22,050 nt of DNA from a virus. Location: positions 1 to 22,050 of the IMG/VR virus record IMGVR_UViG_3300047550_005099; one strand, 5' to 3'. Position numbers and translations under genes: made by a program. The notes under the pieces were generated by a model. It searched no databases, was not told the origin of the DNA, and saw only the letters and a list, made by a program, of their open reading frames with translations. Below, in pieces: positions 4,647 through 20,658 of the stretch (positions are counted from its first letter, which is position 1; each line of letters begins with the position of its first letter).

Positions 4647-5180
4647 ATGGGGCGCCGCTGGCACTACGTTTATTATTCCTATGAAGAGTGGGGGCGCGGT
4701 TATATTGGCAAGCGCTCCTCCAAGGTGCCGCCAGACCAAGACGAATATCTAGGCAGTTTTAGCGACTCAACTTTTAAGCCTAGCCATAAAATTATCTTGG
4801 CAATTTTTGACACATCTAACCAAGCCCTAGAAGCGGAAATAATCTTGCACAATTTTTACAGCGTCGACAAAAATCCTCATTTTGCAAACAAGGCAAGGCA
4901 AACGTCTTCTGGCTTTGCATGGAGCGGAGATCTAACAAAGGTTCTTGCCCCCGAGCAAGAAAGATCTCGTCGTCTAAAAATTTCGGCGTCTCAGCGATCC
5001 GGGTCAAAGGGTTTCTTTTATCGGCTCATCTCCCCCTCCGGTTTGATTTATGTCACAATCAATTTGACTGAATTCTGCAGGACACATAATCTGAATCGTC
5101 AAAACATCGAAAAAGTAGCAAGCGGCGCACGCCGCCATCACAAGGGATGGAGGGTAGAGCGCATGGAGATGAAGCAATGA
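4647..5180 (+). CDS. GIY-YIG-like homing endonuclease
   Basis: 177 residues. The N-terminus has H-Y-V-Y-Y-S (the GIY-like strand) followed by G-R-G-Y-I-G-K-R-S at 16-24, then a catalytic-type glutamate in the helix E-A-E-I-I-L-H-N-F-Y (Glu62/Glu64), all in the order of the GIY-YIG nuclease domain. The C-terminal 50 residues (S-P-S-G-L-I-Y, then N-L-T-E-F-C, ending H-H-K-G-W) resemble the DNA-binding tail of phage free-standing endonucleases of the Seg type. Such enzymes cut an allele lacking the gene and promote its spread. It lies on the strand opposite to the head operon, and its stop overlaps the start of the next plus-strand gene. No Shine-Dalgarno is evident. The target site is unknown. 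Confidence 0.75.
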   Translation: MGRRWHYVYYSYEEWGRGYIGKRSSKVPPDQDEYLGSFSDSTFKPSHKIILAIFDTSNQALEAEIILHNFYSVDKNPHFANKARQTSSGFAWSGDLTKVLAPEQERSRRLKISASQRSGSKGFFYRLISPSGLIYVTINLTEFCRTHNLNRQNIEKVASGARRHHKGWRVERMEMKQ

Positions 5181-14833: not shown

Positions 14834-15706
14834 CTATGTCGCCAGTTCCTTAATCCTTTTCAATGGAACAGCGGCCACTTGCGGGACAATGCTATTTCCT
14901 AATTGCTTAAGTCGGTCCACCCGATGGGATAGCCCATCATCTCCTCGACGAAGTGCGGGTTGAGATAGGTGGCTCCTCCATTCTGGGCTGAGCATTGGAC
15001 CACCACTGCGCCAAGAAGCCTGCCCTTGTCCGCCGCTTTCTGATAGTTCACATTCGGGCCGCTGTCCTTGTAGTCGCGAGTCGTTGGCGTGGGAAGCAGG
15101 GGATATTTGTGAGTCGGGATTCCAATATTCTTGAACACTGCCTCCTTTAGGCAATCCCCGTACCCGTGATTTGTCCGTGCTGGCTCTTGTGCTCTGGGCG
15201 TGGGCAACAATCCAAACGCGTTCTCGACGGTGGCAGGCTCCCAAATCACTTGCTGGAATAACTGCCCATTCTGCATCGTACCCTGCTTTGGCAATTTGAA
15301 AGAGGGTTTCTTGGAACGTTTCCCCGTTTTGGTGAGAGAGTAGATTTCTAACGTTTTCAAGCAAGAGGAAGTCAGGTCGAAGCTCCCTAGCCAAACGGAT
15401 GATTTCATAGAACAGCACACTGCGTTCTCCATCGTATCCTGCTTGTTTTCCTGCGACGCTAAGGTCTTGACAGGGGAAGCCTGCAGTGATGAGAGAAAGT
15501 CCGTTTGGACAAAGTGGTGTGATGTCTTCCGCCGAGAGCGAACGAACGTCCGTGAAGATCGGCGTGTCGGGCCAATGCTTGCGAAGCACTCGCCTGCAAG
15601 GCTCATCTGAATCACAGAAGGCAATGGTTTGGAAACCACCGACAAGCCGTTCGGCTGCATAGCTGAAGCCTCCTATGCCAGAGAAAAGGTCAAGGACTGT
15701 GAGCAT
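14834..15706 (-). CDS. DNA (cytosine-5) methyltransferase
   Basis: 290 residues with the C5-methyltransferase motifs in order: F-S-G-I-G-G-F at 8-14 (SAM binding), catalytic Cys79 in G-F-P-C-Q, E-N-V at 117-119, H-R-R-E-R-V-W at 159-165, and Q-L-G-N-S-I-V-P at 268-275 after a target-recognition region at about 170-260. It methylates cytosine in a sequence that cannot be read from the protein. No restriction enzyme is nearby, so it is an orphan enzyme, probably protecting phage DNA from host restriction or regulating it. It starts four bases after the preceding small gene. Most of its length is also open in the +1 frame (see the entry for 14899-15660). Confidence 0.95.
   Translation of the reverse strand: MLTVLDLFSGIGGFSYAAERLVGGFQTIAFCDSDEPCRRVLRKHWPDTPIFTDVRSLSAEDITPLCPNGLSLITAGFPCQDLSVAGKQAGYDGERSVLFYEIIRLARELRPDFLLLENVRNLLSHQNGETFQETLFQIAKAGYDAEWAVIPASDLGACHRRERVWIVAHAQSTRASTDKSRVRGLPKGGSVQEYWNPDSQISPASHANDSRLQGQRPECELSESGGQGQASWRSGGPMLSPEWRSHLSQPALRRGDDGLSHRVDRLKQLGNSIVPQVAAVPLKRIKELAT
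14899..15660 (-). CDS. Overprinted second gene inside the cytosine methyltransferase (+1 frame)
   Basis: 253 codons open in the +1 frame of the methyltransferase. ATG 15660 is preceded by AGGAGG (15674-15669) with an ideal 8-base spacer. The product has motifs I recognise from stand-alone phage proteins of unknown function: S-P-V-K-T-L-A-S-Q, L-P-K-Q-G-T-M-Q-N-G-Q-L-F, F-G-L-L-P-T-P, L-L-P-T-P-T-T-R-D-Y-K-D, and finally L-N-P-H-F-V-E-E-M-M-G-Y-P-I-G-W-T. Each motif is the +1 reading of a methyltransferase motif (for example P-C-Q-D-L-S gives S-P-V-K-T-L). The AGGAGG itself comes from the G-I-G-G-F codons. It may be a true dual-coding gene or a by-product of constrained codons. Confidence 0.4.
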   Translation of the reverse strand: MQPNGLSVVSKPLPSVIQMSLAGECFASIGPTRRSSRTFVRSRRKTSHHFVQTDFLSSLQASPVKTLASQENKQDTMENAVCCSMKSSVWLGSFDLTSSCLKTLEIYSLTKTGKRSKKPSFKLPKQGTMQNGQLFQQVIWEPATVENAFGLLPTPRAQEPARTNHGYGDCLKEAVFKNIGIPTHKYPLLPTPTTRDYKDSGPNVNYQKAADKGRLLGAVVVQCSAQNGGATYLNPHFVEEMMGYPIGWTDLSN

Positions 15707-18129: not shown

Positions 18130-20658
18130 CTATTCTGCGCAAGCGCTGCAGAAGCCTCCATCTAGTGAGCAGCTTTCCGTCTCCTCAAGGGAGAAGAATT
18201 CGCTCAAGCTCTCTCCCAATTCTACTCCAACATCGTCCTTCGCCTGAGTGCCAGCTTGCACTTGAAGAGCGTAGTACATAGACGTTTGAGGGCTTTGCAG
18301 CCAAGAGCGCAGGAAGTCTTCGTTATAAACAACTAAGTCGCTCCAATGGTTAAGCGAATAGCCATGAAACAGTCCAGTGCGTTGATATAAAGCAACAATG
18401 CCATTTGCCACTTTAAAGAATGCGTCCCAACCCACTTGCTCGGCAATTTCTACGGGCCCATATTCAAAGCGCTCAACGCCCATGGTCTCGCTGTCGCGAT
18501 CAACAACATAATCAATGGGAGGAGCAATTTCAGGGGCTGTGGTGAAGCCCCTGGAATCAAGGTAGCGATAGGAGCATGAGGCCGTAGGAGCAATGCAGAA
18601 TGCACGATCCATGTCATGGGCACGAGCAATGTCAGCAGCACCACGAATGGCATTGTCAAGATGCCACACCGCGTCGCCAGTGACAGTCGTGTTCCACTTC
18701 CTCGCCCATTCACCGCCATCGTCAGCAAGATAGGCCTCTAGGGCATCGCCAAAGTCCTTGTAGGAAATGCCATGGATGGAGAGGAAGTTGGCAAGACCAA
18801 GAATGCCAAGACCTACTTGCTTGTCAATGGAAGGAGAAAGATATTCTCCAGTGTCGCCAACGCCAGTACGAGGATGCAGCTCGCACAGTTGCGTCATTCC
18901 TTCAGCGAACGCTCCTTCAAGATCACTAATCTTGCAAGCGCCAAGGTTAATGTGCTGAAGAAGGCAAGTGCCACGATGAGGAAGCAGCACTTCTAGGCAG
19001 TTCGACACATAAATGCCGTTGGCATCAAACGCGCCTGCATCAGGAATGGAGCAATCAAATACTTCCTCAATGTCGTAAGGCTTGATGCTTTCCACTTTGG
19101 CTACAAATGCTTTTTCGTAGCAAGCCTTTTGATAGGAGCCAAGAAGCTGATCCAGCTTTTCTTGTTTTTCGGGAAGAGTGAAACCAATCAGCGCAGCAAA
19201 ACGCCGCAGATCACCTTGACCAGAAATATCAAGACGAGAGGCCTTCTTCGTTTGATAAAGCTTTTGTCCTCCCTTGCCATCAGGCATCATGGTCATGCCG
19301 CCGTTGTAACGCTCCTTCCAAATGCGGCTACGAATGCCAAAACGCAAAAGCATGCGCTGCATCACTTGGAGATTGCGAAGGCTCACGCTTGTCACCGCAA
19401 TGCTCTTGCCGTTGCCCTTGGACGTGCCAAGGCTCACAGTGCCATCAGCAGAGAAATAGGCCTCAAGGAATCCACGATGGAAGTCAGCGCTGGTTTCTTC
19501 AAGCAGCTCGGTGGCAGTCTTGTTCTGGCGAGAGATGCCATATTCCACTGCCATGCGAGCAAGGCCAACAGAACCCACGCTTGCGCGATCAGCAACTTTA
19601 CTGTGAGTGCCGGTACGCATCGCGGAATAGTGATCGCCTTGCAGAAGATCGTCCAAGGTGGCAAGCTTTTTCAACGCGCCATCCAAAAGCCCTTTCTTGC
19701 TGCCATAGAAATCCAGCTTTGCACTGGTGTCGTCGTGGTAAGTGCCGTCTGCAAGAAGCCAGCCAAGAAGCCAACCCTCGTCATAACTACCTTTACCTTT
19801 CCATTGAGCGCAATCATCAGAAACATGACGATGGAGGGAAATAGTGTCGCCAGGGGCAAGTGCAGAAAGCTCAGTCCAGCCTTTGGGCGTCATGATTTTA
19901 TGGTCGCCAGTGGCACGCACTGAATAACCTTCCTTGGTCTCTAGAACGTAGGTTTGCTTGAAGCCATTGCTCCATGCACCACGTTCCGACGATGGCATTT
20001 CTTGGCCGTTCACAATGGCAACAAAAGGCTTGCCAGCGAGGCTGTCGATGCGCTGCGGGCCTTCAGTGGTTTGAACGATCGTATTGCCAGCCACGCAAAC
20101 GTTGCTGTAGATGCGAGCGCCCTTGGCGTCCGTCATCATTTTTGTCAGCCACAGGTCACCATTGCCAATTGCTTTTAGACAAGCAGCAATCAGTTCGGGA
20201 GAAGATTTTTCAAGGAAGTTTTGATCAACATTCAGACAACGCTTCGCCCAAGGAAAATCAACGCGAGGAGCGGTGACAAATTCAATGGCATCAGGATGCG
20301 TGTAGTCCAGATGCAGTGTGACGGCACCATTGCGAAACTTGCCACCACGACGTAGGATTTCGTTCAGTTTGCTATAGATTTTGGCAAAGCTCACTGGGCC
20401 ACTGGCAACAAGCCCCTTGCCATTATCCTCGCCCTTGGGACGAAGCTTGGAGAGATGGACGGCAGCACCAGCAGCATTGCGCAGAGCATGAGAGACAAAG
20501 CGCCACGAGGCCTCAATGCCATCAGGCCCTTCCATAGAGTCTTCTACAACGTATGTAGTACAGGACACGGCAAGCCTGCTTTCTGGATCATCCAGCCAAT
20601 CCTGCACCCTCCCCGTCCTAGCAATCGGCTCACACTTTGCCTTTTCCTTCAGTCCCAT
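18130..20658 (-). CDS. nrdA: Class I ribonucleotide reductase alpha subunit interrupted by an intein
   Basis: 842 residues; removing the intein (188-553) leaves a 476-residue enzyme, short for the family. It reduces ribonucleotides to deoxyribonucleotides for phage DNA synthesis. Active-site residues visible: Cys33, N-x-C-x-E formed by Asn186 and Cys554-Leu-Glu556 (thiyl-radical cysteine), Cys575 in N-L-G-A-C, paired Tyr795-Tyr796 for radical transfer, and a C-terminal Cys837-x-x-Cys840 for re-reduction. The tyrosine pair and the adjacent beta gene point to class I rather than class II. The N-terminal ATP-cone regulatory domain is absent. The ATG follows a hairpin (20670-20687). Confidence 0.85.
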   Translation of the reverse strand: MGLKEKAKCEPIARTGRVQDWLDDPESRLAVSCTTYVVEDSMEGPDGIEASWRFVSHALRNAAGAAVHLSKLRPKGEDNGKGLVASGPVSFAKIYSKLNEILRRGGKFRNGAVTLHLDYTHPDAIEFVTAPRVDFPWAKRCLNVDQNFLEKSSPELIAACLKAIGNGDLWLTKMMTDAKGARIYSNVCVAGNTIVQTTEGPQRIDSLAGKPFVAIVNGQEMPSSERGAWSNGFKQTYVLETKEGYSVRATGDHKIMTPKGWTELSALAPGDTISLHRHVSDDCAQWKGKGSYDEGWLLGWLLADGTYHDDTSAKLDFYGSKKGLLDGALKKLATLDDLLQGDHYSAMRTGTHSKVADRASVGSVGLARMAVEYGISRQNKTATELLEETSADFHRGFLEAYFSADGTVSLGTSKGNGKSIAVTSVSLRNLQVMQRMLLRFGIRSRIWKERYNGGMTMMPDGKGGQKLYQTKKASRLDISGQGDLRRFAALIGFTLPEKQEKLDQLLGSYQKACYEKAFVAKVESIKPYDIEEVFDCSIPDAGAFDANGIYVSNCLEVLLPHRGTCLLQHINLGACKISDLEGAFAEGMTQLCELHPRTGVGDTGEYLSPSIDKQVGLGILGLANFLSIHGISYKDFGDALEAYLADDGGEWARKWNTTVTGDAVWHLDNAIRGAADIARAHDMDRAFCIAPTASCSYRYLDSRGFTTAPEIAPPIDYVVDRDSETMGVERFEYGPVEIAEQVGWDAFFKVANGIVALYQRTGLFHGYSLNHWSDLVVYNEDFLRSWLQSPQTSMYYALQVQAGTQAKDDVGVELGESLSEFFSLEETESCSLDGGFCSACAE
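19000..20097 (-). mobile_element. Intein with LAGLIDADG-type homing endonuclease in the reductase alpha gene
   Basis: Residues 188-553 of the precursor (366 residues). Splicing blocks: Cys188 at the N-end (C-V-A-G-N-T-I-V), block B with T-G-D-H (250-253), and the C-end with V-F-D-C-S-I-P, then A-N-G-I-Y-V-S-N followed by Cys554. Endonuclease dodecapeptides: L-L-G-W-L-L-A-D-G (297-305) and F-L-E-A-Y-F-S-A-D-G (397-406). The residue before the terminal Asn is Ser instead of the usual His. The insertion point lies immediately before the catalytic cysteine, so Cys554 serves both splicing and catalysis. Confidence 0.9.

Follow-up and report, generated by a model that had tools for sequence, protein, structure and literature searches.

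The C5-cytosine DNA methyltransferase (C5-MTase) M.EcoHK31I has a β subunit of about 176 aa that is nested within the α gene in another reading frame. The enzyme is a YGGCCR C5-MTase made up of two polypeptides, of which the larger carries motifs I–VIII and X and the smaller motif IX; the predicted target-recognition region (TRD) is placed in the larger subunit (Lee, Kam and Shaw 1995, summarised in PMC3404938). M.AquI (PMC3404938) is also a naturally split, two-subunit C5-MTase, whose small subunit bears motifs IX and X together with the recognition region or part of it. The locus described here lies on the minus strand of a virus record of 22,050 bases, the whole of which is referred to below as the window, and we propose, with a probability of about 0.87, that it encodes a two-subunit C5-MTase from a single stretch of DNA, α and β being read in two frames. 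Like M.EcoHK31I, it has a large subunit with motifs I–VIII and X and without motif IX, and its frames, nesting and conservation indicate that motif IX would be carried on a second polypeptide within the α gene, in the other frame, as in the bacterial enzyme. The 177 aa predicted for β from ATG 15432 are also close to the length given above for the M.EcoHK31I subunit. The locus differs in being a phage gene and in that codon-position evidence assigns the recognition region to β, whereas the published summary of M.EcoHK31I has it in α. A second subunit with the recognition region and motif IX would be shared with M.AquI, for which at least part of that region is so placed; unlike in M.AquI, however, motif X (LGNSIVPQ) is found in the α frame and β stops before it. 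The layout has already been reported for one studied bacterial enzyme, M.EcoHK31I, and it is its breadth across phages that deserves attention; literature searches for a phage-wide overlapping pattern found no description of one, which does not prove its absence.

The α gene (14834–15706, minus strand) encodes a C5-MTase large subunit of 290 aa with motifs I–VIII and X and no in-frame motif IX. It matches Pfam PF00145 with an E value of 1.1e-48, covering only profile positions 2–168 of 324, as compared with matches reaching positions 321–324 for the one-piece methyltransferases L180, L184 and L175. The catalytic domain, residues 1–173 (15188–15706), contains motif I (DLFSGIGGF), motif IV (GFPCQ, with the catalytic Cys79), ENV and RRERVW, so that the motif I, PCQ and ENV signature of PF00145 is found in α, and motifs IX and X are both present only when the two frames are taken jointly, X in α and IX in β. 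The AF2 model of α has a mean pLDDT of mostly 80–98 over residues 1–173, with a dip at residues 85–92, and its top structural match is M.HhaI (Z 23.1, 218 aligned residues, 3.4 Å). Residues 3–170 of α match M.HhaI, which it resembles in predicted fold but which carries all of its motifs in one frame. A linker of residues 174–256 (14939–15187) follows, which is most likely the β recognition region read out of frame and for which pLDDT is mostly below 50, and the chain ends with the motif X helices, residues 258–290 (14837–14935), again in the α frame, with pLDDT of 87–96 in the last blocks and synonymous sites that are once more free to vary.

Within α, the +1 frame is open on the same strand from ATG 15660 to a stop at 14899 (762 nt, 253 aa plus stop). 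The coordinates, length and ATG given for this frame in the initial annotation, together with an AGGAGG 8 nt upstream, all proved correct, as did its four codon-by-codon correspondences between α motifs and +1 motifs. When synonymous codons of α are permuted, a +1 stretch as long as 253 codons arises with P of about 0.002–0.005, the permuted median being 110 codons. The longest such stretches in the remaining large genes of the window are 40–96 codons. Elsewhere in the window, inspection by eye suggests a ribonucleotide-reductase-like ORF split by an intein-like insertion (18130–20658, minus strand; CVAGNTIV ... VSNCLEVLL) and an ORF (4647–5180, plus strand), with HYVYYSYEEWGRGYIGKR at its start, that resembles a GIY-YIG homing-type endonuclease. 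Judged from the window alone, the openness of the +1 frame is modest and suggestive only, and it is the comparative evidence that is decisive.

At its C-terminal end the +1 product has the conserved motif IX LNPHFVEEMMGYP. The motif IX segment of β, LNPHFVEEMMGYPIGWT (14914–14964, minus strand), has eight columns, L, P, F, V, E, M, M and G, that are invariant across 43 relatives with identity as low as 22%. In one relative, L142, the equivalent motif IX, LNPDWVEWLMGYP, sits in the α frame, and the L142 protein matches PF00145 over positions 2–322; it also aligns with motif IX of M.HhaI, LHPRECARVMGYP, and with the motif X, GNSVV, that comes after it, this second stretch of the match being weak alone but collinear. 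The alignment of this in-frame copy with the M.HhaI motif identifies, at the sequence level, the corresponding element of β as motif IX. The initial annotation had overlooked this identity and had likened the +1 product to phage proteins of unknown function, which it most likely is not, given that it carries a C5-MTase motif without counterpart in α. With motif IX missing from α and present in the +1 frame, the two frames resemble separate subunits of a single enzyme.

The region between motifs VIII and X evolves in the β frame. Mismatch fractions at β codon positions 1, 2 and 3 are 0.33/0.27/0.54, 0.25/0.16/0.48 and 0.29/0.22/0.39 in three groups of relatives, from an alignment that was built on the β frame and so favours β identity, the position pattern and the comparison of α with the third frame being less affected. 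Over the same linker, α-frame identity is not above that of the unused third frame. Taken together, these observations suggest that the TRD most likely lies in β and that the α linker is most likely a by-product of β coding. The α model fits such an arrangement, with residues 1–173 and 258–290 confident and 174–256 disordered, whereas the published account of M.EcoHK31I, with its predicted TRD in the larger subunit, counts against it, the comparison with that enzyme being by published summary. Modelled alone, β has a mean pLDDT of 52, with only the motif IX helix predicted well, as is to be anticipated when a small domain is modelled apart from its partner, and its fold is therefore suggested by its position in the locus. 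Searches with β alone against Pfam and PDB sequences gave no match, and PDB sequence searches with β, a β profile and Firecracker gp5 returned nothing relevant.

We collected viral relatives by separate α and β searches and took 80 further loci by α motifs only, which avoids selection for β; with the first α search these make 96 loci. In 93 of these 96 relatives, all chosen on α alone, the +1 frame holds an ORF that reaches or exceeds 150 codons, compared with 1 of 96 for the +2 frame. Permutation P is ≤0.005 in 81 of the 96, and in 82 the +1 ORF ends 20–150 nt ahead of the end of α. Both frames are found in nearly every relative locus, down to about 30% identity. In the nested pairs the shift is +1 every time, β lies within α and the β stop mostly falls 50–120 nt before that of α. 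By contrast, the +1 frame of the control one-piece methyltransferases, those of the T4-like Slopekvirus type (L175, L265–L269) and of Thermus phage P74-26, is open for 56–109 codons, which is chance level. The initial annotation had held that early +1 stops in close relatives would speak against a second gene, and the core of the frame is free of stops in these relatives.

Some depositors have annotated the nested second gene, as gp53 within gp52 of Paenibacillus phage Kiel007 and gp55 within gp54 of Babsiella, and nested or partly overlapping pairs are also listed for Firecracker (gp5/gp6) and Lilbooboo (gp32/gp33); other depositors list α only, for instance in Synechococcus phage S-H1 and Paenibacillus phage Harrison. 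The nested pair also occurs in cellular contigs of Chitinophaga, Pedobacter, Prevotella and others, many of which are probably prophages. Individual loci depart from the common layout. In L142 (1495–2547) and L010 (1953–2763) the frame of motif IX, or of the last part of α, is switched, as one indel in each could bring about, and the in-frame motif IX of the former and the frame switch of the latter could be natural variants with re-joined frames or sequencing errors. L145 (132–1952) has two apparent α–β units side by side on one contig, the frames of the second displaced relative to the first, and in L056 (749–2371) the pair is unusually long, an open +1 frame of 478 codons lying within an α of about 530.

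Because the third position of each α codon is the second position of a β codon, every synonymous third-position change in α alters β, and the silent sites of α thereby report on the second frame. These sites vary freely as far as roughly codon 91, are under strong constraint from there to codon 268 and are free again right after the β stop. In a profile of 56 sequences, taken over pairs that are 25–70% identical, agreement at 4-fold degenerate third positions is 0.31 for codons 1–50 and then 0.38, 0.41, 0.61 (codons 131–170), 0.66 (171–240) and 0.79 (241–268), before falling to 0.33 for codons 269–290. Among the ten closest relatives, agreement at sites of 4-fold or greater degeneracy is 0.49–0.52 before codon 50, mostly 0.70–0.94 over codons 92–269 and 0.41 past the β stop. 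The first positions of Leu and Arg codons, which are mostly third positions in β, shift in agreement only from 0.52 to 0.60–0.68, a nearly flat profile that argues against a merely slow-evolving segment. Identity in the β frame exceeds the expectation from α alone at motif IX (0.60 against 0.29) and at codons 131–170 (0.45 against 0.28), and matches it outside the core (0.23 against 0.22 for codons 16–50; 0.20 against 0.20 for codons 269–288). Within the gene, third-position agreement in the small T4-like set itself ranges over 0.27–0.78, so values from few or mosaic sequences are not to be over-read, and we base our conclusion on the 56-sequence profile with its boundaries and on the openness. 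The objection, raised at the outset, that constraint might not extend beyond the methyltransferase motifs is answered by sites on which α places no constraint being conserved over the β core. Of the two possibilities first put forward for the +1 frame, a true dual-coding gene is the one borne out by the conserved openness and the synonymous constraint in relatives, and comparative sequence analysis confirms the dual coding as real.

The probable coding core of β spans 14899–15432 (minus strand; 177 aa from ATG 15432), 4-fold agreement rising at about α codons 97–109 and falling at the β stop, and translation probably starts near 15408–15432. The closest possible starts in the window would be ATG 15432, GTG 15420 (with GGAG and 6 nt ahead of it) and ATG 15408. 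The two ATGs, at codons 92 and 100, are found in the window and in every close relative listed; more distant groups could start elsewhere, in many cases at an ATG at codon 51–52, and no start codon is common to the whole family. The initial annotation had instead placed the start at ATG 15660 with the AGGAGG as ribosome-binding site, giving a 253-aa protein. This remains an unlikely start, despite the perfect AGGAGG at 8 nt and a +1 frame that is open over codons 16–91 in those close relatives whose 5′ ends are complete, though at permutation values of 0.05–0.23 per sequence. The hexamer (15669–15674) lies within motif I codons of α (ATA GGA GGC) and is incidental: among close relatives it is kept only in the nearest, L002 and L007, being absent from L001, L005, L006 and L010 and lacking the needed preceding A in L003, L004 and L009. 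Moreover, constraint is slight or absent over the first 75 or so codons of the ORF. At the amino-acid level there is none in codons 16–50, where identity equals the α-only expectation, and at most a weak one, mainly in the closest group, in codons 51–91, where identity is nearly so; onset is at about codon 97–109. Such a start would be impossible in the many relatives that have +1 stops at codons 31–42, and the 5′ extension of the ORF (15433–15660) is probably not needed for β.

We propose the following model of how the two frames might give rise to one enzyme. The α chain, read in frame 0, would fold as the catalytic large domain with motifs I–VIII and X. The linker joining these parts would be no more than the recognition region out of frame. 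The β chain would be translated in the +1 frame from an internal start near 15408–15432 and would supply the small domain, with the target-recognition region and motif IX. The order of elements in the DNA is that of a one-piece C5-MTase (I–VIII, TRD, IX, X), but with TRD to IX in the other frame, so that the enzyme would presumably be completed in trans as an α–β complex. Translation of β, formation of the complex and methylation activity are all predictions of this model, drawn from the DNA.

Other explanations can be weighed against this model. If the +1 frame were a non-coding by-product of codon choice and motif conservation in α, its openness would be a matter of chance, which for the window alone comes to only about 0.002–0.005, and both codons 16–50 and the SPVKT motif do behave in this way. 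Here the suspicion of the initial annotation, that the +1 motifs arise from wrong-frame translation, holds in part: SPVKT is explained by α motif IV and shows absent or weak extra constraint, but the same cannot be said of GTMQNG, LLPTP and LNPHFVEEMMGYPIGWT. For codons of about 109–268 a by-product is refuted by silent-site agreement, openness and β-frame identity. The conservation of α 4-fold third positions over the β core only, with a drop at the β stop, the open frame in 93 of 96 relatives as against short, chance-level stretches in the Slopekvirus-type and P74-26 controls, and the provision of the missing motif IX by β together make it extremely improbable as an account of the frame. We give still less credence, indeed next to none, to an RNA or DNA element as the cause of the conserved third positions, since variation between motifs VIII and X is highest at β third and lowest at β second positions, a protein-coding signature in the β frame, and the boundary of constraint coincides with the β stop.

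Programmed frameshifting, +1 after motif VIII and back before motif X, would yield one full-length enzyme in place of two subunits. The order of motifs in the DNA, the same as in a one-piece enzyme, is compatible with this, as are L142 and L010, which join the frames differently, each by what could be one indel. The double shift is nevertheless made less likely by constraint on the +1 frame that reaches well upstream of motif VIII, into codons where α is constrained too, a constraint that frameshifting would not need; nor would it need frame 0 to be open throughout the linker, as it is. As the studied relative M.EcoHK31I is, in addition, made of two polypeptides, we regard frameshifting as very unlikely.

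A further overlap was encountered in the streptococcal phage C5-MTases (L180, L185–L264). These are one-piece enzymes, 69 of the 70 having an in-frame motif IX, and we rejected them as a negative control on account of a long +1 ORF of their own, leaving the Slopekvirus type and P74-26 as the controls for openness. The ORF is conserved over about codons 52–190 (MTSQQYQ...SLSDILEE..; L180, 1355–1774, plus strand) and matches a family of its own, PHROG 16143. Third-position agreement is raised over codons 49–190, with permutation P ≤0.004 in the four sequences tested. It may be another overlapping gene, distinct from β, with local rate variation or mosaicism as the alternatives.

The α chain matches PHROG 363 over residues 1–288 and β matches PHROG 1008, the group of proteins that the initial annotation knew as being of unknown function. 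Both are named ‘DNA methyltransferase’ and stand as separate families, but across the loci we examined they are mostly two frames of one gene, while some PHROG 1008 members, Firecracker gp5 among them, come from second genes that overlap in part. It is tempting to generalise that the +1 overlap is the rule in a major branch of phage C5-MTases, in which most PHROG 363 genes would hold a PHROG 1008 partner, and that PHROG 16143 is a second, independent overlapping gene, a tentative extension that we rate at somewhat less than even odds.

Protection of phage DNA from host restriction is an established role of phage methyltransferases and, by analogy, is probably the role of this enzyme in the phage. 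Split C5-MTases of this sort also serve as targeted-methylation tools. Along the gene the frames take turns, from α only to both, to β dominant, to both and back to α only, and a family conserved in this form to about 30% amino-acid identity makes a strong natural case for long overlapping genes. A nested β would explain motif-IX-less methyltransferases that look broken. Since the two PHROG families, which are widely used, correspond largely to two readings of one set of genes, leaving nested ORFs out of an annotation means losing the subunit with motif IX and, with it, probably the sequence specificity of the enzyme.
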